Part shown: positions 1,777-52,575 of the stretch, in pieces
Position numbering within the stretch: position 1 is the stretch's first letter
How the letters are laid out: the number at the start of each line of letters is the position of its first letter
Source: an uncultured bacterium
Lineage (GTDB): Bacteria > Verrucomicrobiota > Lentisphaeria > Victivallales > UBA1829
Assembly: GCA_949290385.1 (NCBI GenBank)
Contig: CASERY010000038.1
Location: 1 to 56,803, forward strand
Direction of reading: 5' to 3'
Length of the DNA stretch: 56,803 nt
Made by a program: the position numbers and the translations under genes
Notes under the pieces: model-generated
Database searches by the model: none
Seen by the model: only the letters and a program-made list of their open reading frames with translations
Told to the model about the DNA's origin: nothing

Positions 1777-3822
1777 ATGCTGACCTTCATGCAGAATATA
1801 TTGATTCGATATTCCAATCTTCTGGTATATCCCATTGTCGCTGCGGCACTTGCCTTGTTTTTTACTTATATATGTCTTTTTCTCATGCCACGTCTCGGGT
1901 TTATGGATATTCCCAGAGGCCGTCATGCCCATAAGGCTCCCACGCCTCGTGGCGGCGGCATAGCCATTGTGCTGGCATTTGTTGCCGCATCCGGACTTTT
2001 CCTGCTGAATACGGTAGAAAATACAGTGTTTCCGCCATTTTCCAGTTCCCAAATTCTGGGTTTCTGTATTCCCGCATAGATTATTGTTATTTTGGGTCTT
2101 CTGGATGATCAGCTGGAACTTTCTGCAGCCATCAAATTTTTCGGACAGGTTGCGGCTTCCGTCATTCTCTTTTACTTTGACGACGGATTTCACAGTGTTC
2201 TCGGATACACTCTGCCCACTTGGGCAGGGTTGACTCTCACAGTTGTCTGGTGCGTGGGAATTATTAATGCATTCAACCTTATTGACGGACTTGATGGTCT
2301 TGCGGCAGGCCTCGCAGCAGTTTCCTCCTTCTGCATCGGAGTATGGATTCTGCTTTCCGGACAAGCAGCCACTCTGGCGGTCATTGTTTTTATTTTCTGC
2401 TTTTCCTGTCTGGGTTTTCTGCGTTACAACTTTCATCCTGCACGGATCTTCATGGGAGATACAGGCAGCATGTTCATTGGATTTTTCTTTGCCTACATCA
2501 GTACCTCCCAGGTATCCAAGGCCGTCACATTCATGTCTCTACTGCTTCCGATTCTGGCCATCGGCATTCCCATTTTTGATGTTTTTCTGGCTATCTGGCG
2601 CCGTCTGGTCCGGAAGTTGAACAATCCGGAAAATCCCAACATTGGAATTATGACTGGCGATCACGATCATTTGCATCACCGGATTCTCAGCAGAGAGCAC
2701 AGTCAATCCAAAACAGCATTGATTCTTTATCTGTTCGCGGCACTCACGTCGATTGGTGCTATGGCGCTGGTTTTTCTCAGCGGAGTACTTCCCGCATTAG
2801 CCTACATGCTGCTTTTCCTCGGGGTTATTTCAGCCATCCGCATGGCAGATGTGGAACTGTTGGATTCGGCAACCTATATTTTAAAAGGATTAAAGATTCC
2901 CAGAAGGAATCTTTTCCTGACGATGATTCATCCGCTGCTGGACATAGTCCTGATTCTGGCGGCTTACTGCATCATGCTTCTGCTCTGTTTTTTCCGCAAT
3001 ACATCCGATGCTTTTACGTTGATATTGCTTCTGACCTATATAGCGCCTTATATTATTGTTCTGTCCCTCTCCAACGTTTACAAAACTTACTGGCTAAGAG
3101 CAGGAATCAACCGATATTTTCTTCTGATCAAATGCCTGATGCTTGCCTTTTTCATCATGGTCTTTCTGAGCTATACCCTTTACATGAACCATTTGATTCT
3201 GATTGAACTGAGTATCCGGGAATATTTTTCAGCGACACTTTTATACGGGCTTCTGGTGTTTGCCTTCATCGCGCTGGAACGTTTTTCCATACGTTATCTG
3301 GAAAGCTTCGGACTCAGACTTCTCTCCGTTAAAAAGCACAAGCACGAAGACCAGAAGCTGGACAAAATTCTAATTGTAGGCGGAGGTCTTTCATGCCGTC
3401 TCTATCTTTCCGGACTGTTCTGCCAGGATCAGCTGGCAAATCCCTTTGATATTGTAGGAATTATAGATGACTGTAAGGATTTGTCCAGGCTCAATATTTA
3501 TGGGTTTGACGTTCTTGGCAGCTCTCAGGATCTTGAACAGCTCCACACAAAATATGCCTTTGACAAAATGATTGTAACTCCCGGTCGTCTCCAGCCATCC
3601 ACACTGGACAATCTGAATCGCTTTCAGAAGAATCACCCGGAAACCGTTATTTTGTATTTCCATCTTCATCTAAGCCCTGTAAACGCGGTAGTGCAGCATG
3701 AGGAAAAAGACCTGCTGAATCTGAACACTCAGAAAATCAGTCTCTTCAACGAGGAAATAGACAATATGAAAAAGGCATAGTCCAGTCATGCTTCAAAGGA
3801 TTTTTCCTAGAAAGAATCCTGA
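1777..3822 (+). CDS. WecA-like glycosyl-1-phosphate transferase fused to CapD-like domain, three in-frame TAG
   Basis: 681 residues if TAG is sense (X at 101, 668 and 678). The N-terminal ~350 residues are a polyprenyl-phosphate sugar-1-phosphate transferase: PRGGGIAI, GLLDDQLEL (catalytic Asp pair), NAFNLIDGLDGLA, FMGDTGS, and HDHLHHRI. The TAG at 2077-2079 falls nine residues before LLDD, so the standard code would cut the enzyme before its active site. After residue ~370 come four more predicted membrane segments and a Rossmann-like stretch beginning KILIVGGG, as in the N-terminal half of CapD/WbpM-type proteins, but no full dehydratase domain. The start at 1777 is preferred because ACAGGA lies eight bases before it; ATG 1768 lacks spacing. 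TAG at 3778 may be an ancestral stop: TGA follows 13 codons later. Likely role: initiating lipid-linked glycan synthesis. Confidence 0.8.
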
Positions 3823-4233
3823 CACTCACCCGTTTTCCTGCAGCACTGCAGAGCGCTTCCAATGATTCAATGGGGATCCTGCCTCAGGAAAAACATCTTT
3901 CTTCTCTTCTACAGATTCCACCTTTTTCTTCTTCAGGATCGGCGAACTTCAGTCTCTTCTCTTCGTTCGCCGTTACTTCACCACACGAGGAGGCCTTTTC
4001 CTCTTTAAGACCGAAAACCACATCCGATGCAAAAGGAACAGATATTTTTTCCATTCTTTTATTTATTCACTCTTTTTCCGAATCCTTGCAGCAGGCAAAA
4101 TATCCCCCTTTAGAAATGTGTATAAAACCAGCATTTCTGTTGTTGTAACAGAAGGCCTTTTTCACAGAAAGACTCGTAAAACGCCTGTCGGTCTTTTGAT
4201 TCTGACTCATTTTATCATGCTGCTTTTTCTATT
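3823..4233. other. Intergenic region between convergent genes
   Basis: About 410 bases between two genes that converge. An open frame at 3870-4148 on the plus strand has serine-rich low-complexity translation, no ribosome binding site and no family features, so I do not call it. I see no clear terminator. Confidence 0.6.
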
Positions 4234-6267
4234 TTACTCTTCATCCTCACGGAAATCCTGCAGAGCCTGATCCAACTCTTCTTCTGCAAGGAAATAAACA
4301 TTGATAGAATAATTGATCTGAAATTCAGGTTTTCTACGTTCCAGATATTCCAGAAGCCGCCGATACCGCAATGCCTGGAAATTCTGAACTTCTCTGAAAA
4401 TCTAAGGATGAATTTCCACATCCTCGTCAACGCCTTTTTCAAGGAGTTCATAAAAAACACTCTTGAATTCCCGGAGCATTCCCGGGTTCCCCATCAGGAT
4501 TTCCAAAAGCTCATTTTTCAGACATCCATGAAGGGCTGTTGCACTGACAACATACCAGCCGGGTTCCAGTTCATACAGCATGTCCTCAAGGCGTTTTGCA
4601 TTAATTGCATAAGGGTGAAGGAACACATGATCGAGCCCTGCAAAAGATTCCGGAACACAGCCGAAATAGACCATATAAAGAGGAACTGATCCATCCAGCG
4701 GAACTCCATGATCCTGCAGACTCCTGCGAATATTCAGGATATCCTGCCCCCAGTCCAGAGAACTGTCACATACATGTTCATAAGCAGTGGACGGCCCCCC
4801 GAAACAAGGACTGAAATATGCCAGTGAATGTGGATAAACACTCATGGAATCCCAGGCATTCCACAAAACAAGCACTCCAGGCACAGCGCAGCATCCCCAT
4901 CTCTTCCAGCGGGCAATACCTGCCTTTCCGGCCAGCATGAACATCTGACCGAATCCCCAAGCCGCCAGGGGCAGAACCGCCGCAATGGAAGGCATCAAAT
5001 GCCGATATCCTATATTCAGTTTTGAAAACAGAGCCATGATGAAAAAATAAACGCCAAAAAGCAAATATGGAAAAATCTATTTAAAACGGGTTCTGCCAAT
5101 CCTTGTCTTCAGCGATACACCCATACATATACATCCTAAAAGCAAAGCAAGAATTGTCGCCGGAGGAGTTTTATAAAGAAATACCAGCGGGAAAAAGCTG
5201 CGGAATCCAGTCATGGATTCTTCTCCGTTTAAAAAACTCCACCTCCGCTGTGCATAATGATATGTATGCAGAAAACCATAGGCAAAAGGTTTCGGAACAA
5301 GACTGTGTTCTCCCAGGAAACGCATCATATCCGGAACAGTTCCCTTTACTGTATGGTCGCTGAAATTTTCATAATCGCGGACCACTTTCCCCTGAATGGT
5401 AACCTTGGGGAAGTCTTCACGGAATCCGTATGCCGCCCAAAGAATACCCCATCCAGCCAATGCAGCCATGCACAAAGCAAGAAATCCTGCAGCCAGACGT
5501 TTTTTCCAATTCTCAAGCTGTACGGTCCTTCTTGTAAAAGGCATTTTCAAAATCACCCTGCCGCGGGAAAACAAACTCAATCCCCATAAAACCAGCAGTA
5601 CAGGAGCAACAGCGCATCCGGACATCTTTGAAAGAATCAGTCCCATGGAAGCTGCAGTAAAAAAACACCAGTTTCCCAACGAATACTTGCGGAACAACCG
5701 TACTCCTGCAAACAGCGTCATTATAAAGAAACAAGTTGCCGCCATGTCCGCCGTTGCCAGAGGAGCATTGGATATAAAAAGCGGCAGGAACACATATATT
5801 CCCAGCATCAACAAAGCTCCGGCTCTTCCGCCAACAGGTCTTGCCACACGCCACAGCAAAAATGCACACGCAACACTGAAAATACACATAACCAGCCGTG
5901 CAAGCAAAAAGTCCTGCTCCGTTAACTTTCCGTATTCAAATAGAATATACCGGGAATAAGGATAAGGAGACTTTTCCATGCTCTCCATAGTCAATTCAGG
6001 CGGCATTTCAATTTTGCCGCAGAGGCCGAGAGCAGCAGTAATCTGGGGAATTACACCGCTTTCCGGATTCATGGTGTATCCGCCGTTCTGAAGCATTTCC
6101 AATCCGCCCGTAATATGGACGGGCTCGTCTACAGTCAGGTAGTTTGACTTCAGGAAGCCTGCGCAAAGAAGAACATGCACAAGCAGAAGGAGCCATACAC
6201 AGGAAATCTCCCATTTTCTCTTGAAAAAAGAAATCATTTTTTGCCTTTTCTTTATTTCTTCACCCAT
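4234..6267 (-). CDS. Membrane glycosyltransferase of the GT39/ArnT (PMT) type, two in-frame TAG
   Basis: 677 residues with X at 397 (TAG 5077-5079) and 622 (TAG 4402-4404). The N-terminus has a membrane segment followed by NYLTVDEPVHITGG, the periplasmic acidic pair typical of polyprenol-phosphate-dependent glycosyltransferases (D-E after TM1). More than eight hydrophobic segments follow. After the first TAG the frame gives SKLNIGYRHLMP, a motif usual near the C-terminal membrane block of this family, and then a soluble tail with SLDWGQDILNIRRSL. The second TAG joins the tail to 55 further codons ending in TAA. The start at 6267 has GGGAG seven bases before it. The family transfers sugars from lipid carriers outside the inner membrane; the acceptor is unknown. 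Confidence 0.8.
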
Positions 6268-6741
6268 CTGTTTTCTCCCAAAGCCAAAGGGGATTGATTC
6301 TTCAGAAAGCGATTCCGGTCTCCCCTGTTTTTTCTAATATTTTTTCTCTTCGATCAGCTTGTTTTTTTGATGCTTTCTGTACTTAGAGTTCTCATTGCAT
6401 GCTGTACAAGAATCATGCAGAAGAATCAAGCGGAGAGTTTATCAGGCTTGATTGTTTGTGCCCGGCTGACTTTATATTCTCTGACTTCAGATCCTCTTCG
6501 CATGATTTCTATTAATGTATGATTCCTGTTATCAGAAGAATTACCCATTTGCAAACAACACAACCTAAAAAGTACAAACATTAATGCTTCTCCAGCCTGC
6601 ATGGCTCCATTTCATCCATTCAAATGAAAATGCTGTTCGGAAGGATCTCCAGCAATTGTTGCAATACCAAAACCGGATGCAAAATGCAACTTTTTTTCAT
6701 TACATGACTCTTTCCGGTCGTCTGTAACAGCAGGATTGTTT
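6268..6741. other. Intergenic region, no gene seen
   Basis: About 470 AT-rich bases between the rex stop and the glycosyltransferase start, both on the minus strand. It should hold the promoter of the glycosyltransferase, but I cannot assign one with confidence. No open frame with coding character. Confidence 0.5.
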
Positions 6742-7419: not shown

Positions 7420-7451
7420 AAGCCCTCCTTAGAGCTGTGAAAGAAAAAACA

Positions 7452-7468
7452 TTGTGATATTTTCACAA
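7452..7468. promoter_or_regulatory. Putative Rex operator
   Basis: The inverted repeat TTGTGATATTTTCACAA matches the known Rex half-sites TTGTGA/TCACAA. The centre is one base shorter than the usual 18-base site. It lies directly upstream of rex, where negative autoregulation is common in the family. Confidence 0.65.
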
Positions 7469-7480
7469 CATACTGCAGGA

Positions 7481-7495
7481 CTTGAAAACTTCAAG
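7481..7495. promoter_or_regulatory. Perfect inverted repeat upstream of rex
   Basis: CTTGAAAACTTCAAG is a perfect 6-bp inverted repeat with a 3-base centre, 12 bases beyond the Rex-type site. It could be a second operator or part of the promoter; I cannot name a binding protein. Confidence 0.3.
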
Positions 7496-7822: not shown

Positions 7823-7846
7823 CATCAACTAATCAAACTGTACAAA

Positions 7847-8599: not shown

Positions 8600-8665
8600 T
8601 TTTCATTCCTTTCTGTTAAAGCCTTTACAGGCTCTCAAGCATTCTTTAGGTGACCTCTATCCTTA

Positions 8666-11815: not shown

Positions 11816-12874
<1,059 letters not shown>

Positions 12875-14839: not shown

Positions 14840-14875
14840 CTGACATCCACGGAACAAATTCAGGAGTATTTGGAT

Positions 14876-15547
14876 ATGAATCTTTTTATCAGTGTTCTCT
14901 GGGAAAATCCGCAGTTCTTTTTTTATTCCCTTTTCTGTGTAATATTTTCAGTATGTCTTCATGAGTACGCCCATGCGCGCACTGCATACGCTTTCGGAGA
15001 CACCACCGCAGCCGATGCCGGATATCTTACACTCAATCCTCTGCGCGTGATGGGCTGGACTGCTATTTTTGCCTTTCTGATCCTTGGAATTGCCTGGGGT
15101 GCAGTTCCGGTCAATACGCAAGTGCTCAAACAGCGCAGTAAATATGCGCCATAGATTGTAGCGGCAGCTGGGCCGGCAGTCAATCTGCTTCTTTTTCTGC
15201 TCTCCTGGACTGCTTTCGGAGCCATAACAGCTTTTGAATCCGCCGGCCACTGGAGAGTTCCGGACACCGGCTTGCTTTTCAACCTGATTATGATGCTCTT
15301 CCTGCTCGGACAATTGAACGGGGTTCTTCTGGTGATAAACCTGCTCCCGATTCCCGGGCTGGATGGATGGAATATTCTTTCTGTTTTCCAGGACCGTTTT
15401 AGAAAAGTTCCTCTCTCTTCTGAAGCGAGCAAAGGAATTTTCCTTTTTCTGATTCTTGTTTTTGTCTTTGGATAGTTTGGTCTTGTAACCCATTTTGTTC
15501 AGAAAATCATGTTTCTGGCACCGGATGTCTTTGCTCGTCTCACGTAA
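14876..15547 (+). CDS. Site-2 protease-like M50 membrane peptidase, two in-frame TAG
   Basis: 223 residues with X at 93 (TAG 15152-15154) and 200 (TAG 15473-15475). Membrane helices carry the zinc motif HEYAHARTAYAFGD near residue 25, GWGAVPVNTQVLKQRSKYAP before the first TAG, and AAAGPAVNLLLFLL just after it, which together form the YwhC-type conserved core. The third metal ligand region NLLPIPGLDGWNIL follows. The second TAG joins a last helix to QKIMFLAPDVFARLT and a TAA stop. The start at 14876 has CAGGAG nine bases before it; TTG 14870 is an alternative. The family cleaves membrane proteins inside the bilayer; the target is unknown. Without TAG decoding the catalytic LDG motif would be lost. 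Confidence 0.85.
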
Positions 15548-15879: not shown

Positions 15880-15956
15880 GGAGGCGTAGCTCAACTGGTT
15901 AGAGTGCCACCCTGTCACGGTGGATGTTGCGGGTTCGAGTCCCGTCGCTTCCGCCA
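15880..15956 (+). tRNA. tRNA-Asp (GTC)
   Basis: 77 bases including an encoded CCA. Acceptor arm GGAGGCG pairs with CGCTTCC (one G-T), the anticodon arm is CCACC-CTGTCAC-GGTGG with anticodon GTC, and the T arm is GCGGG-TTCGAGT-CCCGT. All arms close as expected. Confidence 0.97.
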
Positions 15957-16090: not shown

Positions 16091-16167
16091 GGAGGCGTAG
16101 CTCAACTGGTTAGAGTGCCACCCTGTCACGGTGGATGTTGCGGGTTCGAGTCCCGTCGCTTCCGCCA
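16091..16167 (+). tRNA. tRNA-Asp (GTC), second identical copy
   Basis: Identical in all 77 bases to the copy at 15880, including CCA, and preceded by a similar ATCAAGC stretch. The spacer between the two is 134 bases and otherwise unlike. It has no obvious promoter of its own, so the two may be cotranscribed. Confidence 0.97.
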
Positions 16168-20089: not shown

Positions 20090-21781
20090 TTAAAGTATCT
20101 GATAGGGTTTTCTACGTTTCGGAACAGGATGGAATACAGGATGTTCCGGATCCGATAAGTCAATGCCGCTGGCAAAAAACTGTTCCGACAACCCTGATGC
20201 GGCTGTCCGTAATGCCAGAATCAATCGATGCTGCGTGGGAATCTATGGCTGTTCCGGAGCATCCAGGATGATTTCCGGCGTAAAATCTTTATGGATCCAC
20301 ACCAGTGCCCATCCCTCCGGAACCTCATCTGCATGAATGACTCCCTCAGGAGCCACTAAATAATACGCATCTGCCAGCTGTTCTTGAATCATTCTTGCAT
20401 AAATGGAATCTGCGGAAAGCTCTCGTTCCAGTTTTTCCATCCTGCGAATACATCTGTGATAGGCTCGGTTTGAAGACAGAGAATAATCCCATTTCTCCTC
20501 TTCGCCAAAAAGATTTGAAACTCTCACAGACGGTTCATTTTCACGAATCTCAGCCTCCAGTTCCTCCCGCAGTTTTCTGCATGCAGCGAGCTCTTCCTGA
20601 AGAGTCACATGCTTTTCCTCATTCATTTTTACTTTGAAAGAAGATCTGGACAGTACCGTCATTGCCAAAGCCGTTCGTACAGGATACAAATCTGTTCTTC
20701 CGCCATGCGGCAACCAGAAAGCTGCAGCATCTGCTTTCTGACGTCCCAGGAGCAGCGGTACTTTCATTGCAGCTCCGGAAGGCTGAAGTGTTCCGAGAAA
20801 TCCCAAAGCCGCCCTGCGCAATGTAACACTGTTCATGACAGGCGTAAAAATACTTTTTCTTGCGGATTTCTTCCTTGCAAAATCAGGCGAAACAGTCGAA
20901 GACTCTGGAATATTTTCAGAAAAATCCTCCACCCGTTCCGCTCCGCCATTCTCTCTTTTATTGGAGGATTCGTCAATATCTACAGAATTTTCCTCTCCGG
21001 ACAATCCCTCCGTCCTGATACTTTCCTGCGTCTTTTCAGCGGCATCTTCTTCATAATTTTCTACAAGAACAGCCTTTTCCCATGGTGTTTTTTCCATGTC
21101 TGTCTGTCCTGCGCTGTCTGCCACTCCCCCGGAAACCAATTCCTCTGCAGAAAAGACTGTAAGACGGCTCTTCTCTTCAAGTCTTTCTGGACCAATCTGC
21201 TCTGCAGAAGCATCTGCTGCTGGGAAAACCCGCTTTTCCGGATCCGTTCCGGACCCGGAAAAAGACGGGGAATTTTCAAATTCACTGGATTCATTCGTGT
21301 TTACAGTATTCTCTCCTGCCGGGGATGCAGCCATAACAGAACCTGGGACGCTATTGTGTGTCCATGCTCTGTCCGACTCCTCATCATGATGTTTTTCAGA
21401 AGAAGACTGAAGTGCATCATCCGGTTTTTCCTCCCTGAAATGACGGTTCAGCCATGCATCAGCAACAGCATCATCTTCATCGTGAGTATCTGCTGCAAAA
21501 GAAGCGCTGTCAGACTTCCACATGGAGGGAAGCTCCGGCTCATTTGCGGATTTTTCAACAGAGACTTCTTCCGGATTTTGTTCCTCTTCCTCCGGAAGAC
21601 CGCCTGCACTTAGAAGAGCCTCCAGGGCATCCTCCTCCGTGTCAAAATCAACCTTCTGCAGAAGACGGGATACGTCCCGGACTTTTCTTCCGGACGTCTT
21701 TTCTTCGACATTCTTCTAGGATTCCATGTCCTCATAGAAGCCGAAAGACATCTGAAGATCATCCTCTTCGCCGTATCCCAT
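20090..21781 (-). CDS. Acidic protein of unknown function, two in-frame TAG
   Basis: 563 residues with X at 22 (TAG 21716-21718) and 513 (TAG 20243-20245). The N-terminal ~230 residues are acidic and rich in Glu, Ser and Asp (low complexity, probably disordered). The C-terminal third is ordered: a Lys/Glu-rich coiled-coil-like segment (residues ~390-460), then YYLVAPEGVI and EVPEGWALVWI. That last pattern resembles the end of MmcB-like PD-(D/E)XK repair proteins, but I see no full set of catalytic residues. The TAG at 20243 might be the old stop; the frame stays open 50 more codons to TAA. It lies 62 bases after rpsA and may be cotranscribed. Function not recognised. Confidence 0.65.
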
Positions 21782-31220: not shown

Positions 31221-32414
31221 ATGAGTATTTCATTCAAAAAAATTCTGATGGGAGCCTCTCTTGCTCTGTCGGTTTGCGTGATGGCAGCCGCAAGTGCAAT
31301 AGGTGCAGATTCAAGCACAGCCCCTTCCAATGACAACAAAGTTACAGCGCTGCAATATCTTCCAGCGGACAGCACGATTTACTTCTTCAGCGATAATATG
31401 GCATATACCAATATCCCTGAACTTGTAGCTCTGGTAGAAGAAATGAAAAACCTATCTCAGAGCACCCAGACGCTTCCAGTACAGCAAGATTTTCCGGGAT
31501 CCAGTGCATTCTCTGCTTCTTTGGACTTTTTCCCCGCTGAAAGCGGCGGTGTAGACTGCAAAATAAAAATCTTCGGAGTGACGCTTCTGGACAATCCGGA
31601 AGATACTGAAAAAGCTTTGGCCCCAGTCATTGATTCACAGTTTATTGAAATGCTGCAGCAAGCACTCTCGACACAGGGAAATTTCGACATACAGTTTGAG
31701 GAAAAAGCTTTCCAGGAGAAAAAAGCTTTCTTATATTCTATAAAGTCTCCTGAACTTTCTATTCCGATAAACATGCGCATCGTTCAGGAAAGCGATACAA
31801 TGATCTCATTCTGTATTGCCGTCAATTGCGAACTTCCGGAAGAAAGTCCCTTCCCCGCAGAACCACAGCCAGTCAATCCACTGATGGAAACTACGAACAC
31901 AGTTTTTGGAATTGCAGTGCTTCCCTCCGCCCTGTGCAAACAAATTATGGACTAGCTTGGAAAAGAATATAAGCCGTCCCTTCCGGAAGATCAGGAACTT
32001 ATTAATTACGCAATCAATACAGATTTCGCCATGTTCCGTGCTTATACCGAAGGATAGTCTCTCAAACTGACAGCCCTTTCTTCTGCCAAGGATGACGCCA
32101 TGGCCCAGAAGACTATGGGTTATTTCCAGGAAATTCTGAATGGGTACAATCAGGAGCCTCAGGCAGCACTCTTCCTGCCGAATCTCACGGCTGAACGGGA
32201 CGGCAACAATGCCATCCTGAAAGCTGATGTAAATATGCCCCTTATAGCCTCTTACATGACAGTTTTCATGGCCCAGATGATGATGGAACTGCAAAATCAG
32301 GGAGATGATTCCATCTATGAAGACTATCCTATGGATGAAATGGACGTAGAGTATGAAATAGAAGAAGTCGAAATCACCCCGGATCTTGAACAGGAAACAG
32401 TTGATTCACATTGA
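31221..32414 (+). CDS. Secreted protein of unknown function, paralogue B, two in-frame TAG
   Basis: 397 residues with X at 245 (TAG 31953-31955) and 279 (TAG 32055-32057). It has a signal peptide (ILMGASLALSVCVMAAASAIGA), then ALQYLPADSTIYFF as in DUF3352-like proteins, and a Glu-rich C-terminus. It is the tandem paralogue of the previous gene. At the two TAG positions paralogue A has Lys (MD-K-P) and Gln (DEN-Q-SPK). Because the homology continues in register across both TAG codons, they are read as amino acids. The two hairpins after the stop may terminate the transcript. Function unknown. Stop is TGA. Confidence 0.8.
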
Positions 32415-37050: not shown

Positions 37051-38409
37051 TCATGCCGATTTTTTCGAATCCATCCGCATTCTCGGATCCACAAAGGCAT
37101 AGGCAATATCTGTAAGCAGATTAATCACTACGAATAAAAAGGCCCCAAGTAAAACCAGAGCTTTCAGCAGCTGAAGATCAGAATCATTCAACGCATTAAT
37201 GCTTTCATATCCCAATCCCGGAATGCCAAAAAAGCTTTCCAGAAGCAGACTTCCCGTAAACAGGAAAGGAAGCACCGTACTTGCCCGTGTTATAATTGGA
37301 ATCATGGCATTTTTCAGCAGATGCTTCAGATAGAGAGATCCCATGGAAACCCCTTTGGCCCTGGCGGTGCGCAAATACTCCTTGTTGATTTCATTGACAA
37401 ATACAGTTCTGTAAAAGCGCACCCCGCTGCCTGTTCCGCTGACAATGCCAATAGCTACAGGCAGCAGAAGATATCGCAAATCGCCCCAGCCCCAGACAGG
37501 AAAAAGATTCAGATAATATGCGAGAAACCACTGGCCGAAAATAATCAGAGCCAGATAACTCACACTCATACCTGCTACAGAAAGCACTACAATCGTTCTG
37601 TCAATCCACGTTCCCCTGTATGCACAGGAAATCAATGCCAGGAGGATCCCCAGCACAAGTTCTCCGAAAAAAATAGGGAGCATCAGGAAAAGAGAAGGCC
37701 ACATTCCCTTCCAGAGTTTTTCCCGGATGGGTTCCCTTGTCTGCAGAGTCTTTCCGAAATCAAAAAAATGCACATAAGGAAAATCGGGTTTAAAGCATAC
37801 AATTTCCTTCAGGGAATCCAGCAACTGTGAATCCCAGGCATGTTTCATGGGCCTGTAAAATGCAAGAGATTTTATTTCTGTTTCTTCCCGGGCTTTTCCG
37901 TTGTTTTCCATCCCGGAGCAGCTGTTCTGAATGATCAACTTTTCAGGGATGGCTTTCAGGATCAGCTCCCCTTCCCCATTTTCATCCGGCTACACGGAAA
38001 TCCCGTTGACACATAAAGGGCCGGATGAAGAAAACACCATTCGAACAGACTCCTCTTTATCGAGTTCAAAATTTCGTGACAAAGCTATACAGGCATCTTT
38101 TTTCAAGGTCAATCCCTGATCTCCCGGGACAAAATTTCCTTCCAGAGCAATCCCTGCGAAATTGGTCCTTTTATCACTGAAATCTGCAGAACTGAAACAC
38201 TCCGTCTTCTTCCATTTTCCCCAGAACAACGGCTTGTCCACCCCAAGACTCTACCGTAAATTTTCCACATCCTGCGGCGTGGGATTTTTCCCCAGGAGCG
38301 TCCCTGTGGGATCACCTGCTGCCATGCGGAACATCACAAAAGTAAGAACAAGCACCCCCAGAAGAATCAGAAGAGAATAAACACAGCGTCTGACGATATA
38401 ACGCAACAT
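37051..38409 (-). CDS. Peptide/nickel-type ABC permease (DppB-like) with inserted periplasmic domain, two in-frame TAG
   Basis: 452 residues with X at 53 (TAG 38251-38253) and 140 (TAG 37990-37992). It begins with the DppB start MLRYIVRRCVYSLLILLGVLV and MFRMAAGDP, and the first TAG falls inside the conserved R-X-SLGVDKPLF (usually a polar residue). Between residues ~65 and 190 is an insertion, mostly beta-like with KKDACIALSRNFELDKEESVR, that ordinary DppB lacks. The permease resumes with five membrane segments and the EAA loop RTARAKGVSMGSLYLKHLLKNAMIPI. I chose ATG 38409; 38433 is TTG. It imports oligopeptides or similar with the binding protein upstream. No DppC or ATPase is in the window. 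Stop is TGA. Confidence 0.85.
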
Positions 38410-38838
38410 AAAAGAAAAAATCCTGTTGTTCAAAAATTGTACATTTCTTCGGTCTCTTCAGTTTCACCCGATTTTATCCAGTGGAAAACTAAATGAGTTT
38501 TTCTCTTCCCGTTTCCCTTGTAAGCCATCCCCTCCTCCCCCCTCACTGCTGCAATATACCCCTGTTTCCCGGTTTAACAACCGGAATATACAGAGATTTC
38601 CCAAGGGTCTTCATGAACTGCTGTCCTGGGCCGTCTCTGGCAGAGATTTATTTCGTGGAAAAAGATTTCCCTTCTTCCAGTCATCTTCCACGACCATCAG
38701 CAGCGTTGCATTCCTGACATTTTCCGTCTTTACAGACACTTTCATTGCCGTACAACAGTAAAAAACAAATCAGTTCTGCTGTTCTCTCCGCCTGTATCCT
38801 GTATCTGTATCGACCATCTTCTCTTCGGACAAAAGAGT
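38410..38838. other. Gap between binding protein and permease
   Basis: About 430 bases between two genes that belong to one transport system. An open frame at 38426-38761 on the opposite strand is low-complexity and unsupported. No terminator seen. Confidence 0.45.
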
Positions 38839-40701
38839 TTAAAATCCAACTGGCCGCTGTTCAACTCTAGGAACCCATAAGATTCGTTCAGAAATTCCCA
38901 GCGGGAAAATTCTCAGGTTGCGGTAACGTTTGTTAATGGCACTCAGCGAGGACGGCTAGAACAGAAAAAGATAAGGTTCCTCCTCATGAATCAACCGATG
39001 AAACTTGTGATAAAGCTCCATTCTTTTCTCCTCATCAAAACAGGTCCGGATCTCCTCAATAAGCTGATCCGCTTCCGGATTTGAAAAAGAAATATAGTTG
39101 CTGGAACTCGGCAGATCTGCTGAATCCGAATGCCACAGCTGATACGGATCCGGCATAATGGGAGAAGTCCAGCCAAGCACCACCGCATCAAATTTTCTGG
39201 AATCCACCCGGTCCAGAATCACAGACCACTCCAGGGAAAGGATATCCAGCTGAATACCGGCTTTAGCCATATCTTCCTTCAGAATCGGCAGCATTTTCTG
39301 GTAAGTGGTATTGGCTCCCGGATAAATAACGGTAAAGCGGAATGGCACACCGTTTTTATCCAGAATGCCATCGCCGTCACTGTCAGACCATCCGGCTTCC
39401 CGGAGCAGGGCACGTGCTTTTTCAACATCAAAGGCATAAGGCTCCACAGAATGGTCGTAATAAGGACTTTCTGTAAACAGGGGACCTGAAACAGGTTTCG
39501 CAAGACCGTAGTAGACATCCTTGAGGATCCGTTCACGATTCACCAGACTGCTCAAAGCCACACGCACCTTCTTATCCTGAAACAGCGGGTTGCGCAAATT
39601 CAGTCCAATGTAGTTGTAGACAGAAGATGGCGTCTCAATTTTCCGCAGATATCCGTTTTCTCCGAAAGGCGCCGAACCAGTATTGCTGATCCATTGCTCC
39701 GGTGTCAGGTTTACCTCATCCACGTCCTGGGACACCAGCGCCTGAAGACGGGTGCTGGGATGCTGAATCAATTCAAAAACAATATCCCGAATAGGCGGCA
39801 TAATCCCGAGGCGTCTGCCGAAATATTTCTCAAAACGCTTAAAGCGCACAAATTTGCCCTTTTCCCAGGATTCAAACTGATAGGGTCCGCATCCCACAAT
39901 CATGCGGTTGCGCTCATGATCTTCATTGAAGCGTGTTCCGTCAAAAGGCCCTTCATAGGCATGGTACAAATGGCGGGGAAGCGGCATGAGTCCCAGAGTA
40001 ATCTCCTTTGCCATGAAGTAAGGCGTCTTCCATTCCACTTCAAATTCATAGTCATTGAGCACGCGGATTTCCTGAATGCCGGAAAGATATCCTCTTAAAG
40101 GTGCGGCATCCACTTTTTCATCCTGTATCACCTGAAGGAAAAACGCAAAATCCTGAGCTTTAACTTCCACATTCTTCCATTCCTTGCCTGTCACAGGATC
40201 AGTGAAGTCATGCCATAAGATGCCTTTTCGCAGTTTGATGCGATAAGTCTGCTGATCTTCCGAAACGGTCCATGATTCCGCCAGCATGGGCTGAAATTCA
40301 TCCAGGCGCTCCCAGTTGCGTTCCGCCAGAGAATGATTCGCAAGATCCCAGAATGCGGCCACGGCTGCGTCATTGTTCAGAATGTAATTCATATTTCCTG
40401 TGTCAGAAGCCATCACCGTAATCAAACGTCCGCCGCTTTCTGCCTCCGGATCAAAAAATTCCGCATTGGCCGCAGGAACCTCATCCGCCATGCCGGATGC
40501 CTCCTTCCAAGCGCCCCGGACTCCCGTATAAGCGGGGAAATTCTATTGGATTTCCTGCATTTCCTGAATTTGTCTGCGCAGATTTTCCACTTCATAGCGG
40601 AGGCGGTCCGTGCTGACAACGAAAGCTATTCCGAAAAAAATGACAGCCGCCGTCAGAACTGTCACCACTATATTCAGATATGAATGATTCTGATACTGCA
40701 T
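38839..40701 (-). CDS. ABC transporter extracellular solute-binding protein family 5, two in-frame TAG
   Basis: 620 residues with X at 53 (TAG 40543-40545) and 582 (TAG 38956-38958). The N-terminus is a signal anchor (YLNIVVTVLTAAVIFFGIAFVV) plus a short coiled coil (LRYEVENLRRQIQEMQEIQ). The main domain is SBP_bac_5: YRIKLRKGILWHDF, YEFEVEWKTPYFMAKE, YIGLNLRNPLFQDKKVRVAL. The last TAG sits in EEEPYLFLF-X-PSSLSAINKR, where homologues continue without break to a terminal WVP motif, as here (ILWVPRVEQ). The ATG at 40701 has GGGAGAGG upstream. It captures peptides or related solutes for the DppB-like permease. Being anchored by a helix rather than lipidated is notable. Stop is TAA. Confidence 0.87.
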
Positions 40702-40855
40702 AACCCTGAAACCTCTCCCCTGAAATCTTGAATGGACACACTGCACAGCAAAGAAAAATACCATACTGCATGGATAATTTCAAAAGATTGCTTGAAAAAA
40801 AGCAGAAATTGTCCTATTGTGTTGTCATCTATATAAAAACACGGAGTATTTTTCC

Positions 40856-41968: not shown

Positions 41969-42367
41969 ATGTTTTTTACACAGAAATCCGGCTCCTTCAT
42001 TCTTGTTCTGATCATTTTTGCGATCATTGCAATTGGCCTTATTTCGCTTTTTATCGTCTTTTTCCCGTTTATCCTGCTTGTGTTATTCATTCTGTTTCTT
42101 CTGGGAATGCGGAGGACCTCCATCTTCCATTATACATACCGCAGTACACAGCCACCTGGCAGGACAACCGGACAAACCAATCATTCCAGCCAGTCTCCAT
42201 TCCCTGGAAATGCGGAAAATCGCAATGACAGCATTGATGTGGATTTTGATGTCTGCGATGCAGAATACAAAGTCATAGGAAGCCAGAGCTGTACTGACGA
42301 ACAGGATCCCAAAGGTAAAAAGAATGCTGAACCATTCTCTTCTCCGGAAAACGATTCACACCGTTAA
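41969..42367 (+). CDS. Small membrane protein of unknown function
   Basis: 132 residues. The first half is two close hydrophobic segments (residues ~10-45, LVLIIFAIIAIGLISLFIVF); the second half is polar, rich in Ser, Asn, Asp and Thr, with SIDVDFDVCDAEYKVI. The topology suggests a cytoplasmic or periplasmic tail on a hairpin anchor. It overlaps the next gene by 44 bases, implying translational coupling. Function not recognised. Stop is TAA. Confidence 0.6.
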   Translation: MFFTQKSGSFILVLIIFAIIAIGLISLFIVFFPFILLVLFILFLLGMRRTSIFHYTYRSTQPPGRTTGQTNHSSQSPFPGNAENRNDSIDVDFDVCDAEYKVIGSQSCTDEQDPKGKKNAEPFSSPENDSHR

Positions 42368-43715: not shown

Positions 43716-44564
43716 ATGACTCTCCCCTGTTTTCTTCAACAACTTCCGCATGAGTTTTCTCTTTTTGACGAAAAAGAGAAAAATATTTATTTCAAATAGG
43801 TTTTGAAAATTATCGGTTTTACCTTTTCTTCTGACGGATTTTTGACGGATCCTTCTGACGAAATTATTTTCTCCTTGCAGCATCCGGAGAATCTCCGTCT
43901 GGGGGATCAGGCCCTTGTCTGCTGGATGGAGACTGCACAAAAACTGCATGAGTCGTCTTCCATCTGGAATTCCATCACACCGGATCCAGTCTCTCTGAGC
44001 GAACTTTTCTGCAGAGAAAGTCTACTTCTGCAGAAAAAACTTGAAGGCCTCAATGCAGTCTTTCAAGATTCGTTTCTACACTATACAACTACCTATCCGG
44101 ATCATTGGACTGCTGCAGGAAAAGACTTTCTTGGTTTTCTGGACCTTCCCCATAACGGGGCTCTTCTCGAACTTGCCAATTTAGCAAGCATCCACTGGAG
44201 TCATCCAGGCCCCCTTGCAAAAGAAGAAATGGAACAGCTTTGCGATCAGTGGAATCTTCAGCCATATTTGGAATTTCTCAGTGCCATGCGTCCGCGTATG
44301 GAAAAAGATGAATGCCTGCTTGCTTTTCTGCTGACAGCTGCAGCTGCAGAAATTTTTACAGATTTTCCTTCCTTTCAAAGCCTTTCAAAGGCCTTTCTGG
44401 AGCGTCTGACAAATCTTTCTGCAAAAAAATCATCTCCTTCTATTTTTCCCCCGCGGGAAAAGGGCCGCACCTTTACTCTTGAAATTCATTCTCCTTATGC
44501 ACCGGCATGGAATGGCAGGAAAGAACCGGGAAGGTCCATTTTCTCAAAGGAATCCTTTTTCTGA
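43716..44564 (+). CDS. Hypothetical protein, one in-frame TAG
   Basis: 282 residues with X at 28 (TAG 43797-43799). No signal peptide or membrane helix. The middle is helical: MTLPCFLQQLPHEFSLFDEK at the start, KIIGFTFSSDGF after X, then ALLELANLASIHWSHPGPL. No motif I can assign. Ribosome binding is weak (AAAGA). It follows the preceding gene by 60 bases on the same strand, so the three genes 41969-44564 may form one unit. Stop is TGA. Confidence 0.6.
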
Positions 44565-46520: not shown

Positions 46521-47933
46521 TCAACGACGTACCTGGGGACGGCGACTCAATTCCAGCACAGAAGCCTCCGGGAACTGAGGAGCATTGAGAACTCTCAGAT
46601 TATCCGCATTGAAAGACGAGGATTCTCCGGAAGGAGCTGACGGTTCTTCCATATCTGCGGGGGAAGATATTTCCTCCTCCACAGGAAGTCTTTCGCTCTC
46701 ATCTGCCCCCTGAACACTGCTTCTGTCCGACGGAAACAAAGCCATGATAATACCCCAGAGTACAAGAACCACAAAAACCGCCAGCACTCCAATGCCAATA
46801 TAAATAAATCTCCGGATGCGCTTTTCCTCCTCCTCATTCACAAGCGCTTCGCTCTCTATATCTTCAATGATTTTGGTCGGTACATCGGCATGGGTCTCTG
46901 CAAATGCCTGGAGCTGCTTCATTGCCAGCTCAGTACTTGGCTCATCCATGCAGTAAAGACGGCACAGTGCACGCACATAGGCTGAAATAAAAACAGGCGG
47001 CAGTTTTTCCTCTGCTGAATCATCTTCCAACGCACTCAGATACTGAAGTGTAATGCGGGTTTGTGCGGAAACTTTCTCCAGTGTCATGCCAGCCTGCTTT
47101 CTAGCCTCCGTCAAAATAGCCCCCAGAGTTATTTCCGGGTTATCAAAAAACTCTGGCCCCAGCGTCACTTTATTCTGCGATGCCTGATGTATCGTCCGGG
47201 CTCTCTCTTCAGAAGGCTTTTCAGCAGACCATCTGTCTCCGCGCGACGGCAAGGGATTCTTCTCCGAAAAGACCAACGGATGATTATTCTGCCCTTTGCC
47301 TGCCACTTGTTCCACAATAACTTCTCCGGGGAACTGAGGCTGAGGCAATTTGGAGACATCCACTCTGGAATGGCTTCGGAAAAGCGAGTTACGCTCCTCC
47401 AGGGATGCAGTTTCCTCTCCCTCCCTGGAATCGGTCACGGTCTTTTTCGGAATTGCCGGTGAAGAAAAAGATTGTTTCTAAGTTTCCTTATCCTCAAAAA
47501 AATCTTTTTCCCTGAAAGAAAATGAAGCCGCCGGGCGTGCTGCCGATTCCGGTACGGAAGAAGATGATGATCCCGCAAATTCTGCAGCTGCAGCCGCTGC
47601 GGCATTCCTGGGCAGATAGTGGAAATCTGAATCACTTACATTGGTATAATCAGGAGGCGGGGGCGGAACGGATGTTGACTGTTTCCATGCAGAAAAAGAT
47701 GAATTTTCTGAAGCATCCTGAGCCATAAAAAGATCTGCATCTCTTCCATCCAGGGACGAAAGAGGGGGCATTGAACGGGCAGAACTTATATCTGAAGAAT
47801 CAGAAGCTACTGAATCTGAGGCTTTTTTCTCTGAAATCTCCGTTTCAGATGAATACCGCCCGGCAGCAGCGAACAGTTCATTGTTCAAATCGTCCGCAGA
47901 AGCAGCGCGATTATTCCCGTCCTTCGTCTCCAT
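46521..47933 (-). CDS. RodZ-like helix-turn-helix membrane protein, one in-frame TAG
   Basis: 470 residues with X at 152 (TAG 47478-47480). The N-terminal ~260 residues are low-complexity, Ser/Glu/Pro-rich and probably disordered. At 270-340 lies a RodZ/Xre-type helix-turn-helix: GAILTEARKQAGMTLEKVS, then YLSALE, and AYVRALCRLY. A membrane helix is at 376-400, with a Ser/Glu-rich outer tail. RodZ anchors MreB to the membrane, and mreB is in this window, though 34 kb away. The long disordered front is not seen in classical RodZ. ATG 47933 has GGAG upstream. The ftsK gene precedes it on the same strand, 79 bases away. Stop is TGA. Confidence 0.75.
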
Positions 47934-48012
47934 TCATTTTCTCCGTGAGATGTTTTATCCTGTTTCTAAAGAAGACCATATGCTTCCCTTATACAATAGC
48001 GCATTTCCTGAA

Positions 48013-50880
48013 TTAGTCAACCTGATTTTCTTCCAGACCTTCGGTAATCAGGATTTCCCGTTTCTGTCCTCCGGGCAGCGGAGCACTGACGATTCCACGG
48101 TCTTCCAGTTCATCCATCAGTTCGGCCGCCCGGTTGTAGCCAATTCCAAGACGGCGCTGCAGATATGAAATACTGGCCTTCTGCTCATGAATAATAATTT
48201 CCAGAGCCTGACACAGCAAGTCCGAATCCCCCGGCTGAAGATACTTTGCCACTGCAGAATTGGCCCATTCCGGAGACACCCCTCCATGACCGTCCTCAGA
48301 GGAATCTCCTTCGCCATTATGAACTTCCACATCTTCTGCCACAACTTTTGTATCAAAATGCTGTTCCATCTGAGCCGAAACGAAATCTACAACCCGCTGG
48401 ATTTCAGGATCCGATACCATGGAACCCTGAATGCGTTCAAGGCCCTCGGCTCCGGGTGGTTTGAAGAGCATATCCCCCTGTCCCAGAAGTTTCTCCGCAC
48501 CTCCTGCGTCAAGGATCACCCGGCTGTCCATGTTGGACCCGACTTTAAAGGCTATTTTTGTGGGAAGGTTGGCTTTAATCAGACCGGTAATAACATCTTT
48601 TCTCGGTGTTTGAGTGGCAATCACCAGATGGATTCCGGCGGCACGCCCTTTCTGGGCAATCCGACAGATGGAAGTCTCCACATCCTTTTTAGCCTCTGTC
48701 ATCATAATATCCGCCAGCTCATCCACAATAATAATCAACAGCGGAAGTTTAGGCGGAATAACTTCTCCATCATCATCCAGAACGGGCTGAGGATCCGGCG
48801 GTCTTGAATTAAATCCTGCCAGATTTTTAGCTTTCACCCTGGCCAGAACTTTATAACGGCGCTCCATCTCATTGACTCCCCACCGCAGGGCCAGCGGCAC
48901 TTTTTTGGGATCATTGACCACCGGAGTGATCAAATGCGGAAGAGGCCGGTACATTTCAAGCTCTACGACTTTCGGATCCACCAGAATCAGGCGCAAGTCT
49001 TTGGGGGAAAACTTGAACAGCAAACTCATAATCAATGTATTCATACAGACGGATTTTCCAGATCCGGTAGATCCTGCAATCAACAGATGAGGTGCTTTTG
49101 CCAAATCTGTAACAATTACTTCTCCGGAAATATCGCGTCCCAGAATAATCGGAATGCTTTTACTGGAGTTTTTCCAAACCGGCGATTCCATCAGAGAACG
49201 TATATATACAATGCTGGAAACCTTGTTCGGCACCTCGATTCCCACAGCATCCTTTCCAGGGATCGGTGCCAGAATACGGATACTGGGAGCTGCAAGCTCC
49301 ATGGCAATATTTCCAGCAATGCCGCTTACTTTTTCCACTTTTACACCACGTGCAAGCGAAATTTCAAAACGTGTCACACGCGGTCCCACCACAATTTGAG
49401 TCACACGACCGTCAATATTGAAACTTTCCAATGTCTGCTGAAGACGTTCTTTGGATGTTTCAATATGTTCATTGTCCTCATTGCGGATTTCATCATGTTT
49501 GTCCAGCAGATTGGTCTGGGGCAGCACAAAAGGTTCGTCAAAAGAACTGGATGACGGAGAACAGGACTGCCCTGCAGAAGCGGAACGCATTCGACTATCC
49601 GGACGGCCGGCTGAAACGCGTGCAGCATTTGCTGCCTGTTGCATTCCGTGCATCACAGGAACTGCTGCAGGCGGATCATCCTGATATGGATTATCAGGCG
49701 GCGGTGGAGGGGGTTGTCTTGACGCATGAAAATCTTCAGGATAAGCAGGAACAGGCGGAATTTCCTCCGGATCTGCCTCTGAGAAATCCGCCGTGGAAGG
49801 GTCTTCAGAACTTTCATCAAAAGGCGGCCGCACATTTATCTCTTCCGGCAAACGGGAGAGTTCTTCATCTGCCGGACCGCTTTCCGTCCTTTGAAGCAGC
49901 TTTTTGAACCCTGAAAAGATGGATTTTGTGCTTTGATTTTTCTGATTTCCGTCAAATTCAGCATTTTCTTCCGTCATTTCATCCGAAGGTGAAGGAGCCA
50001 TGTCGCCCGATTCATTTGGATCCTTCTTCAATCCGGATACAATGACAGTTTCCCGAGAGGAGTATTCTTCAGAATCTGGAGAAGAAACCGTCTGATTTTT
50101 TGCACTGTCATCTCCATGCTAACGGGCATATTCTTCCTCATGCAGTTTTTCGAGTCTTTGTTCTTCCTCTTCCTCCTCGCGGCGTTTTTTTCTGGAGGCA
50201 GCATAAGAATCTACAATTCGATTCAATAAAGCAGCAAATACGCTATGCCAGTCCCGGTAATAAATCACGCCAAGACCAGGCAGGAGAAGTACTGCTGCAA
50301 CAACCAGCGTCCCCACATCTCCGATATAGCGACGGATCAGCCCCGTCATTTCCAGATTCTCTCCGTCAGGAGGAGCCGCCAGGGCAGCCCCGATAACCCC
50401 TCCGGAAAGAGCCAGTGAAGAACGTTCCATGCGGCCGATTCCCAAGGCATCCGTTTCCGCGATATAGTTTTCCGGCCACATTGCCAGCAGCATTGTAAAT
50501 CCCAGAACCACAGCAAACAATCCAGCCAGATATCCATGAACCTTTTTCCTCGGAATCGGGATAAACCAGCGAATCAGGCAGCAAGCAAAAACCGCAAGCA
50601 CAGGATATACAGCCAGTCCGAAACAATAAAACAGAACACGGGAAATCTCCGCCCCAAGCGGTCCGATCCAGTTTTTCACCGGTCCCTGAGTCCCCCCTTC
50701 CAGAACCGATAAATCCCCGCGGTCAAAAGAAAAAATCGCCAGGATAAACAACAGCAGCACTGTGAATCCAACAAGATACCGGATTTTAAACCAGCGGCAA
50801 GGTTGTTCATTCTGACGAATGTCATCTACCTTCTCCAGTTTTTCATCCGTTTTGCTGTTCTTTTTTTTCTTCTCTTCCAT
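48013..50880 (-). CDS. ftsK: DNA translocase FtsK, one in-frame TAG
   Basis: 955 residues with X at 254 (TAG 50119-50121). The N-terminus has four hydrophobic segments (for example YLVGFTVLLLFILAIFSF and GYLAGLFAVVLGFTMLLA), then a charged linker where the TAG lies. After it follow a Pro/Glu-rich linker and the motor: alpha domain FNIDGRVTQIVVGPRVTRFE, Walker A GSTGSGKS at 603-610, Walker B region LLIIIVDELADIMM, and CRIAQKGRAAGIHLVIATQTP. The C-terminal gamma winged helix ISYLQRRLGIGYNRAAELMDELE binds KOPS-like sites. Under standard code the membrane and motor parts would be two proteins, but neither half has a ribosome binding site in the middle. Stop is TAA. Confidence 0.92.
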
Positions 50881-51468
50881 GAATTCAATGCTCCATATTC
50901 TTGTTTACAGGCTGTCTCCTGAAATAATAGCATAATTCCTGCGATATAAAAGGGAGAATCGCATGTTTTCCAGATTTTTCCTTTCCATAAAACTCTGGTT
51001 CATTTTGATTTCCGCCACAGGGAAAAACTGGAAAAAAGAAGCTGCAACTTCTTTTTATTCAATTTGTTCTAAAACTAAAATATTTGATTATCATTAGACC
51101 GTCATATGAATCCGTCAGAAAAAATGACGGTCTCTAATGACGACTGATCATTTTGCCGAAGCAAGAAAGAAATCCCTGAAAACACCTTGCTACTTCAGGT
51201 CCTTTAGATTCCCGGACCATGCCTTTTCGGACAAAATACCATAAGAAAACAGAGTTTAGGATGCACTGCCAGATATCCCGCTTCCTGATGGCAGTCCAAA
51301 TCGGCATTGAATTTTTTGCAGAATTCTCAGAGGGTCTTGCAGACTCCAGCCAGCACAGCAGCCCTATGGATCCATCTCCTTAAAACAAACCTTACAAGGA
51401 TGCGCTCAGGACACCGTCAGATTTATTCTCCCGGAAATAACGATATACTTTGTTCCGCCCGGATTTCT
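50881..51468. other. Intergenic region
   Basis: About 590 bases between rfbB and ftsK (both minus strand). It holds the hairpin at 51096-51133 and should hold the ftsK promoter. No gene seen. Confidence 0.5.
51096..51133. other. Perfect 10-bp inverted repeat
   Basis: AGACCGTCAT (51096-51105) and ATGACGGTCT (51124-51133) with an 18-base loop, which itself holds a GTCAG repeat. No T tract on either strand; position between rfbB and ftsK. Confidence 0.6.
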
Positions 51469-52575
51469 TTATTTTTTCTATTCCCCCGGCAAATTATGAA
51501 AGCCGCTGTTTCCCAGACGCTCCATCCGGTAAGAACCATTTAAAACATGGGCGCACCAAGTATTTCTGTGTTTCAAAAACCACTCAACCGTTTTGCGTAT
51601 GCCACTTTCAAAAGTCTCCTGCGGATGCCATCCCAGTTCTCTGCGGATTTTTCCGGCATCAATGCCATAGCGCAAATCATGCCCCGGACGGTCCTGGACA
51701 AAAACAATCTGTTCTGCATAGGACCTTCCGTCTTTCTTCGGACTCAGCTCATCCAGAATTTTGCAAATTGTTCGGACCACATCAATATTCCTGCGTTCAC
51801 TGTTTCCGCCAATATTGTATGTTTCGCCTGGAATTCCGCATTTGACTGCCCGATAAAGAGCTCTTGCATGGTCTTCCACATAAAGCCAGTCGCGAATCTG
51901 CAGGCCCTGCCCGTAAACAGGCAGACTTTTTCCATCCAGCGCACGAAGGATTGTCAGTGGAATAAGTTTTTCCGGAAAATGATAAGGCCCGTAATTGTTG
52001 GAGCAGTTCGTAACAATTGCCGGCAGGCCGAAAGTCCTATTCCAGGCACGTACCAGATGATCAGCTCCCGCTTTAGACGCTGAATACGGCGATGACGGCG
52101 CATAAGGGGTTGTTTCATGGAAAAGCTCTGTTCCGTTTTTCAGCTCCCCATAAACTTCATCTGTAGAAATATGATGGAAAAGAAAATATTTCCTGCCGTC
52201 TTCCGAAAGTGATTCAAAATACTTCCTCGCAGCTTCAAGCAATGTGCAGGTTCCCACAATATTGGTCTGGATAAACACCTCCGGACTGTCAATGGAACGA
52301 TCCACATGGGATTCGGCCGCCAGATGCATTATCTTCGTCGGCCTGAAACGCTCAAAAATGCTGTCCATGGCCTTCCGGTCACAAATATCCGCCTTCTCAA
52401 AATGGAAACGTGGAGAAGCCGATACTTCCTGAAGCGATTCCAGATTTCCCGCATAGGTCAGCTTGTCGATCACGCATACCTGATCCGGAGTCTCTGTAAG
52501 AATCAGCCGGACCACCGCAGAACCAATAAAGCCTGCACCGCCCGTTATCAGAATTCTGTCTGTTCTTTCATTCAT
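51469..52575 (-). CDS. rfbB: dTDP-glucose 4,6-dehydratase, TAG near the C-terminus
   Basis: 368 residues if the TAG at 51478-51480 is sense (X at 366, then two Lys and TAA). An extended SDR enzyme: [29 protein letters not shown] (Thr/Asp/Glu of RmlB), [17 protein letters not shown] (YxxxK), [15 protein letters not shown] and [22 protein letters not shown] sequence ([16 protein letters not shown]). It makes dTDP-4-keto-6-deoxyglucose for O-antigen-like sugars. Start 52575 gives the usual length; 52635 is a possible longer start. This TAG may be an ancestral stop, so it does not by itself show recoding. Confidence 0.92.

Follow-up and report, generated by a model that had tools for sequence, protein, structure and literature searches.

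In-frame UAG as a sense codon, probably for alanine, in the draft genome of an uncultured Victivallales bacterium

UAG ends translation in nearly every organism, and contig CASERY010000038.1 of an uncultured bacterium of the Victivallales (UBA1829 in GTDB; NCBI GenBank assembly GCA_949290385.1) raises the question of whether it can also be an ordinary codon for an amino acid on a bacterial chromosome. The stretch of DNA analysed here, referred to as the window, covers positions 1 to 56,803 of the forward strand of this contig, and a first-pass annotation had proposed that UAG is read as an amino acid throughout its positions 1777..52575, on the basis of 26 in-frame TAG codons in 17 genes; it named neither the amino acid nor a decoder. 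Our answer is that UAG is almost certainly a sense codon in this genome. The reading that we prefer, with a probability of about two in three, is that of a new bacterial code in which UAG is likely alanine following the likely loss of release factor 1 (RF1), the predicted decoder being a tRNA-Ala with the anticodon CUA, of which the searches of the assembly described below found none. The assembly is a draft of 2.68 Mb in 168 contigs (78.48% complete, 2.03% contaminated), with a GC content of 47% (343 kb sampled) and with the window as its contig 38. Among named genomes, MreB of the window matches five Victivallaceae or Lentisphaerae/Lentisphaeria at 65–70% identity, Victivallaceae best, and the family of the source genome (f1) is represented by 36 genomes in 10 genera, with no second genome of the source genus listed.

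All 26 positions indeed carry TAG (CTA for minus-strand genes) in the frames proposed for them, and two further codons, at 6334 and 42276, bring the total in the 17 frames to 28, with not a single interruption by TAA or TGA. When TAG is treated as sense, Pfam domains are recovered in 11 of the 17 frames, and in several of these they continue in register across the codon, as had been proposed: a single domain spans TAG in the wecA-like GT4, MreB, M50, GH35/42 and other frames, and separate domains in one frame flank it on either side in RlmI-like, FtsK and DppB. Six frames have no match in Pfam, and for these the evidence is the openness of the frame. The 17 frames are the following:

1768..3822, plus strand: wecA-like GT4 with a CoA-binding domain (CoA_binding_3; PF00953, PF13727), TAG at 2077, 3778 and 3808, stop TGA
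4234..6429, minus strand: PMT_2, GT39-like (PF13231), TAG at 6334, 5077 and 4402, stop TAA
10112..11377, minus strand: RlmI-like methyltransferase, TAG at 11084 between PUA_3 and Methyltrans_SAM (PF17785 and PF10672 in one frame), stop TAA
11816..12835, minus strand: MreB (PF06723, 479 bits, residues 12-338), TAG at 12707, within the domain, stop TGA
14870..15547, plus strand: peptidase M50 (PF02163), TAG at 15152 and 15473, stop TAA
16893..18419, plus strand: GH35/42-like glycosidase (PF01301, PF02449, PF18120), TAG at 17148, stop TGA
20090..21781, minus strand: uncharacterised protein, open frame only, no Pfam match, TAG at 21716 and 20243, stop TAA
26969..28315, plus strand: uncharacterised protein, open frame only, no Pfam match, TAG at 26999, stop TAA
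29740..30978, plus strand: uncharacterised protein, open frame only, no Pfam match, TAG at 30085, stop TGA
31221..32414, plus strand: uncharacterised protein, open frame, no Pfam match, TAG at 31953 and 32055, stop TGA
37051..38433, minus strand: DppB-like permease (PF19300 and PF00528 in one frame), TAG at 38251 and 37990, stop TGA
38839..40764, minus strand: SBP_bac_5 solute-binding protein (PF00496, residues 156-546), TAG at 40543 and 38956 flanking the domain, stop TAA
42018..43655, plus strand: uncharacterised protein, open frame only, no Pfam match, TAG at 42276, 42456 and 42657, stop TAA
43716..44564, plus strand: uncharacterised protein, open frame only, no Pfam match, TAG at 43797, stop TGA
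46521..47933, minus strand: HTH_25, RodZ-like (PF13413, residues 274-326), TAG at 47478, ahead of the HTH domain, stop TGA
48013..50880, minus strand: FtsK (PF13491, PF17854, PF01580 and PF09397 in one frame), TAG at 50119, after the 4TM domain and before the alpha domain, stop TAA
51469..52635, minus strand: RfbB-like dehydratase (PF16363, PF01370), TAG at 51478, with the TAA stop two codons further on

Two of the wecA-like codons, 3778 and 3808, fall beyond the domains in the C-terminal tail and are uninformative. TAG 32055 has a codon-usage signal on either flank; a codon-usage test on both flanks was set aside as too blunt (12 TAG, 1 TAA, 1 TGA).

The excess of internal TAG extends beyond the window to the sampled part of the genome. 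With one gene caller applied to 737 kb of the source genome and to 44–634 kb of each of seven relatives from the family, 219 internal TAG sites were counted in 150 of the 479 genes called in the source genome, corresponding to 1.52 per 1000 codons in the window and 1.26 in the rest of the sample, against 0.00, 0.06, 0.08, 0.09, 0.12, 0.13 and 0.26 in the relatives. Homology-anchored columns, from which matches below 30 or 35% identity, matches with stops in the subject and overlapping weaker frames were excluded, contained TAG at 54 of 55,940 positions, TGA at 10 of 51,226 and TAA at 6 of 52,325; at an identity of at least 35%, the counts were 50 of 52,128, 6 of 48,665 and 3 of 50,537, respectively. 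Interruptions by TAA or TGA at a similar rate, which the first-pass annotation had named as grounds for abandoning its proposal, are thus not seen, and the excess of one stop codon alone differs from the mixture of all three that decay or sequencing error was expected to produce. TAG occurs in 27 of the 42 stretches with aligned columns, including the housekeeping genes mreB, ftsK and prfB, and is most numerous, among the aligned genes listed, in an AcrB-like RND pump (L082:11116-14262), with six in-frame codons. Genome-wide, three of 42 ABC_tran matches contain one TAG each and none contains TAA or TGA, and all three wecA-like matches in the source genome carry TAG, which occurs in none of the wecA-like matches listed from 35 relatives (TAA or TGA in four).

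Gene ends point in the same direction. Among 167 genes for which the C-terminus of an orthologue could be located, 144 stop within 12 codons of it (TAA 80, TGA 64) and the other 23 do not; a TAG lies within 12 codons of the orthologue end in two of the former and two of the latter, so that a TAG end is possible in at most 4 of the 167, far from the many that would have told against the original proposal. With fewer relatives, a previous run had yielded 139 matching ends out of 157 and two possible TAG ends. The seven relatives themselves use TAG as a stop 0 to 13 times per sample, compared with 30 to 433 times for TAA and TGA together, which suggests that UAG had little left to do as a stop by the time the change came. 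TAG stops are commoner in G010 (13 of 149 called ends; L210-L219) and G020 (9 of 97; L194-L199, L200, L201) than in the other five. Homology, gene ends and the absent RF1 together support the proposal that UAG encodes an amino acid throughout the segment, and extend it to all of the genome that was sampled.

Release factor 2 (RF2), for which we take the SPF motif to be the signature, is the sole full-length release factor found in the assembly (TIGR00020, 523 bits). Its gene (L048:4416-5534) has one in-frame TAG, at codon 50, so that termination in the cell would itself depend on the new reading. A short release-factor-like protein of ~190 amino acids (G000:C30:60900-61076; L002), possibly involved in rescue, is also present in many relatives. 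No RF1 was found in the source assembly, at its completeness of 78.48%, whereas 33 of the 36 family genomes encode one (32 above the cut-off and G001, with 415.8 bits, just below it); the three without are the source genome, G016 and G042, each less than 80% complete. G016 (72% complete) was considered as a sister recoding and rejected, because one internal TAG in 10,882 codons corresponds to the standard code. The locus itself is telling: prfA is immediately preceded by rpmE in the relative G020 (where a dppB near prfA encodes a protein 58.9% identical to the DppB-like permease of the window) and immediately followed by an ABC gene in G002 and G008, and in the source genome rpmE (C43:944-1147) and the ABC gene (from ~1550) adjoin, ~400 bp apart, with no prfA. 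A tblastn search of this gap with RF1 of G008 returned nothing significant, the best match (E 4.4, 16 residues) being taken as chance. We consider it very likely that RF1 has been lost from the lineage.

Which amino acid UAG specifies was approached by three tests, based on pairwise columns, homologue columns and Pfam profiles, and these disagree. Opposite the 54 TAG sites of the pairwise alignments, the distribution of residues is background-like (Ala 11, Gly 5, Lys 5, Gln 4.6, Arg 4.6, Leu 4, Ser 3, Trp 0). Alanine is the commonest, with 11 of 54 against 5.3 expected, and tryptophan is excluded in practice. In controls on columns no more than 30 codons away from TAG sites, 20 of 20 amino acids were recovered, with gains of at least 18 nats for sense codons. 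Inference from single orthologues, attempted with 13 and then 54 TAG columns, produced no clear winner, and a first column pass without frame filtering was discarded, as wrong frames dominated it. In the homologue columns, alanine came first. A first set of sites, consisting of six in the AcrB-like pump and two in RibD (genes chosen for multiple TAGs), then three in PlsC, gave summed scores of +6.2 nats for Ala, -3.9 for Ser and -9.4 for Gln, with control draws of 10 columns right in 196–200 of 200 cases per amino acid. With the addition of sites in M50, MreB, RF2, ThiD, ArgH, UppS, MlaE and one ABC gene, the sum over 20 sites in 11 genes was +10.9 for Ala, -12.2 for Ser, -13.3 for Thr and -15.4 for Gln, and Ala led in all 11 leave-one-gene-out runs and at pseudocount weights of 2–20. 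The columns for ThiD, ArgH, UppS, MlaE and the ABC gene were read by eye from PDB alignments plus relatives, with near-identical chains counted once, and the sum was run both with and without PlsC codon 6, which fits Phe/Leu/Ile. Several columns consist mainly of small residues: ThiD has Ala in 6 of 6, AcrB-like 703 only Thr (88) and Ala (32), AcrB-like 759 Ala/Ser/Gly, RibD 196 only Ala/Ser/Cys and PlsC 99 Ala/Thr/Ser/Cys/Val. In the two M50 columns Ala is the commonest residue among family orthologues (A13 L8 V3 I2 P1 W1 of 28; A7 L3 T2 F2 V1 Y1 of 16).

Several observations nevertheless weigh against one or another part of the preferred reading. In the window, TAG 26999 is close to the start of its gene and a downstream start is possible, and TAG 51478 of the RfbB-like gene, the weakest case, could be the original end and is uninformative. 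A cruder rule labels 32 TAGs near gene ends of the source genome as possible terminators, compared with the at most 4 of 167 allowed by the orthologue-end test. Draft incompleteness alone could explain the absence of RF1, and the locus is therefore counted as the stronger evidence; there, the rpmE–prfA and prfA–ABC orders come from different relatives, none of which was seen with all three genes in a row, so that the deletion of prfA is one that we infer. With respect to alanine, no gain over the 54 pairwise columns exceeds 2 nats (Pro 2.0, His 0.2, Gln -2.3, Ala -2.7), ThiD and M50 were selected after Ala was already suspected, and Ala is rare or missing in the polar, Tyr or Gly columns at AcrB-like 124 and 672, RibD 22, PlsC 177, MreB, ArgH and MlaE. 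Pfam scoring of 27 sites mildly favours Gln (2300.4 bits), 10.5 bits above Ala (2289.9), with Lys at 2291.7, Ser at 2290.6 and Glu at 2288.2; for the AcrB-like gene it gives Gln 1014.6 and Ala 1010.4, opposite to the homologue columns. These totals cover the five residues scored throughout, count GH42 but not the overlapping GH35 at one site, and omit an M50 site scored for Ala (12.8 bits) and Thr (12.3) only. The Pfam models, being broad, may give credit to polar residues wherever a site is on the surface, whereas alignments of close homologues would reveal the sites that accept small residues only; Ala would fit both kinds of site and Gln just one. On balance, alanine appears to be the probable meaning of UAG.

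The decoder is the other point to be weighed against it: a CUA anticodon is present in none of the 46 tRNA genes found with the Rfam model in the incomplete assembly (45 typed; one truncated at a contig end and identified by eye as tRNA-Glu). Relaxing this search to E 10 yielded one extra match (13.7 bits, in the tmRNA region) and no CUA tRNA, and ARAGORN, applied to the sampled part of the genome with default settings and -ps90, reported neither a CUA tRNA nor a pyrrolysine (Pyl) tRNA; the few Pyl tRNA calls at -ps80 and -ps70 are chance-like. Several ordinary tRNAs are also absent from the assembly (for example, Ser GCT/GGA/CGA, Ala TGC and Ile GAT), so that a missing decoder gene is not surprising. 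A pattern search for CUA tRNAs pointed to four places, of which two were inspected and neither was accepted: the one on C83 is not a tRNA, and the other (G000:C164:65-149, minus strand; L100) is a poor tRNA-Sec-like stretch of 19.4 bits with CTA close to where the anticodon would be, located 65 bases from the contig end and lacking CCA, perhaps a remnant or a divergent tRNA. Duplicated tRNAs include a tandem pair of tRNA-Asp(GTC) in the window (15880-15956 and 16091-16167) and, in other parts of the genome, Arg ACG, Glu TTC and Leu CAG.

The most obvious competitor to alanine is glutamine, the meaning of UAG in phage code 15 and many ciliates, which would here require a CUA-bearing or wobbling Gln tRNA. 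Glutamine ranks first in the Pfam scoring, 8.7 bits above Lys, is 3-fold enriched opposite TAG (4.6 vs 1.5 expected of 54) and headed the first likelihoods, though with a negative value. However, if UAG meant Gln, CAG to TAG would be a single synonymous transition and Gln should face TAG about as often as it faces real Gln codons, whereas it does so in 8.5% of the 54 columns, against a fraction of 0.40 of 69 columns for matched Gln codons nearby. Furthermore, not one Gln occurs among the 28–120 homologues at AcrB-like 703 and 759, RibD 196, PlsC 99 and M50 94, and the column sum separates Gln (-15.4) from Ala (+10.9), so that we regard this assignment as improbable. We hold equally unlikely the possibility that UAG is unassigned, being read slowly and with several amino acids by near-cognate tRNAs at tolerant sites only, RF1 having gone and no dedicated tRNA having taken its place. 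This would agree with the failure to find a CUA tRNA in the assembly, with the lack of an amino acid emerging from the pairwise test and with the unusual variability of the TAG sites, where relatives agree with each other at 18% over 16 columns, compared with 57% over 509 flanking columns; RF1-less Escherichia coli is reported to read UAG in this way (PMC6207430). Rescue tagging and frameshifting are reported at unassigned UAG in such cells, which is difficult to reconcile with six TAGs in one AcrB-like gene and one or two in RF2, MreB, FtsK, UppS and others. The presence of TAG in near-invariant Ala or Ala/Ser columns also speaks against this reading.

Serine, threonine or another residue, delivered by a tRNA that escaped notice, such as the stretch on C164, has a slimmer chance still: Ser ranks second in the column sum but 23 nats below Ala, and the 19.4 bits of the stretch as tRNA-Sec fall far under the gathering score of 47, with several non-standard pairs and without the encoded CCA that the inspected tRNAs have, one tRNA-Leu excepted. 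An artefact is hardly credible, whether it came from sequencing error, from pseudogenes or from a contaminating phage or eukaryote with a changed code; the division of the draft into 168 contigs and its 2% contamination invite the suspicion, but the excess concerns TAG only, reaches 27 of 42 aligned stretches and housekeeping genes, and is accompanied by genes that end elsewhere. Genome-wide pyrrolysine deserves as little credence. To our knowledge, UAG is a Pyl codon in some archaea and bacteria, and the pyrrolysine code resembles the present case in reading UAG as an amino acid; unlike there, no PylS above the cut-off was found in the incomplete assembly, where the model has a single match, which reaches 20 bits when 178 are required (it also matches 13 of 14 control genomes and passes the cut-off in just one of them), and ARAGORN at default and -ps90 found no Pyl tRNA.

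For the alanine code, we consider a route through codon disappearance reasonably probable, in which RF1 was deleted once UAG had nearly gone as a stop, a tRNA-Ala(CUA) captured the codon and UAG spread in essential genes, including that of RF2. At the outset, TAG would already have been a rare stop in the family, and RF1 could then have been deleted at little cost. A CUA tRNA, predicted to be a tRNA-Ala, would subsequently have given UAG its new meaning. Because every Ala codon differs from UAG at more than one base, the codon would have entered genes mainly through amino-acid changes at Ala-tolerant sites, and TAG sites would therefore be variable, with some in Ala/Ser/Thr/Cys columns. The spread may have been caught early, with UAG mostly at Ala-tolerant sites.

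Among the systems compared, the closest precedent is found in the mitochondria of the green algae Hydrodictyaceae and Neochloris, where UAG means Ala after a prior disappearance of UAG and is matched by an alanine-type CUA tRNA (PMC6821328). The parallels would be the change from UAG to Ala, the earlier rarity of UAG, a change in the release factor and a CUA-bearing Ala tRNA, known there and predicted here; the algal case, however, concerns an organelle with a mutated mtRF1a, and ours a bacterial genome in which RF1 is missing and the CUA tRNA was not found. According to PMC8629427, the bacterial code changes known before it were all of UGA, and the five new codes of that study concern arginine codons; UGA cases are also discussed in PMC13092985. 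The UGA reassignments of Mycoplasma, Absconditabacteria, insect symbionts and Organicella (PMC8629427, PMC13092985, PMC8204192) likewise turn a stop into a sense codon with loss of the matching release factor, but involve UGA and RF2, as opposed to UAG and RF1 in a 2.7 Mb genome that is not reduced. Phage code 15 (UAG as Gln in crAss-like phages; PMC9523058) shares the sense reading of UAG in DNA of bacterial systems but is viral, the host keeping UAG as a stop, whereas here the codon lies in chromosomal housekeeping genes with homologue columns that do not favour Gln. Recoded E. coli with a deletion of RF1 also lacks this factor and reads through UAG, but it was engineered and its genome cleared of UAG first (PMC6207430), in contrast to the UAG spread through genes here. 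The statement of the first-pass annotation that no established bacterial code reassigns UAG agrees with PMC8629427 and with our literature searches, which recognised no report of a bacterial genome that uses UAG generally as sense, within a coverage that largely left out subscription papers and bioRxiv.

If the preferred reading is correct, this would be the first case, to judge from these searches, of a bacterial chromosome in which UAG serves generally as sense. The genome is unremarkable in size and GC content, and the relatives sampled have retained the standard code. Gene prediction with table 11 would truncate its proteins and probably understate the completeness of the genome, and further cases may accordingly hide in collections of draft genomes. 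The codon-disappearance model would, moreover, become testable in a bacterium, since the family contains genomes with rare UAG stops and RF1 alongside one with neither.

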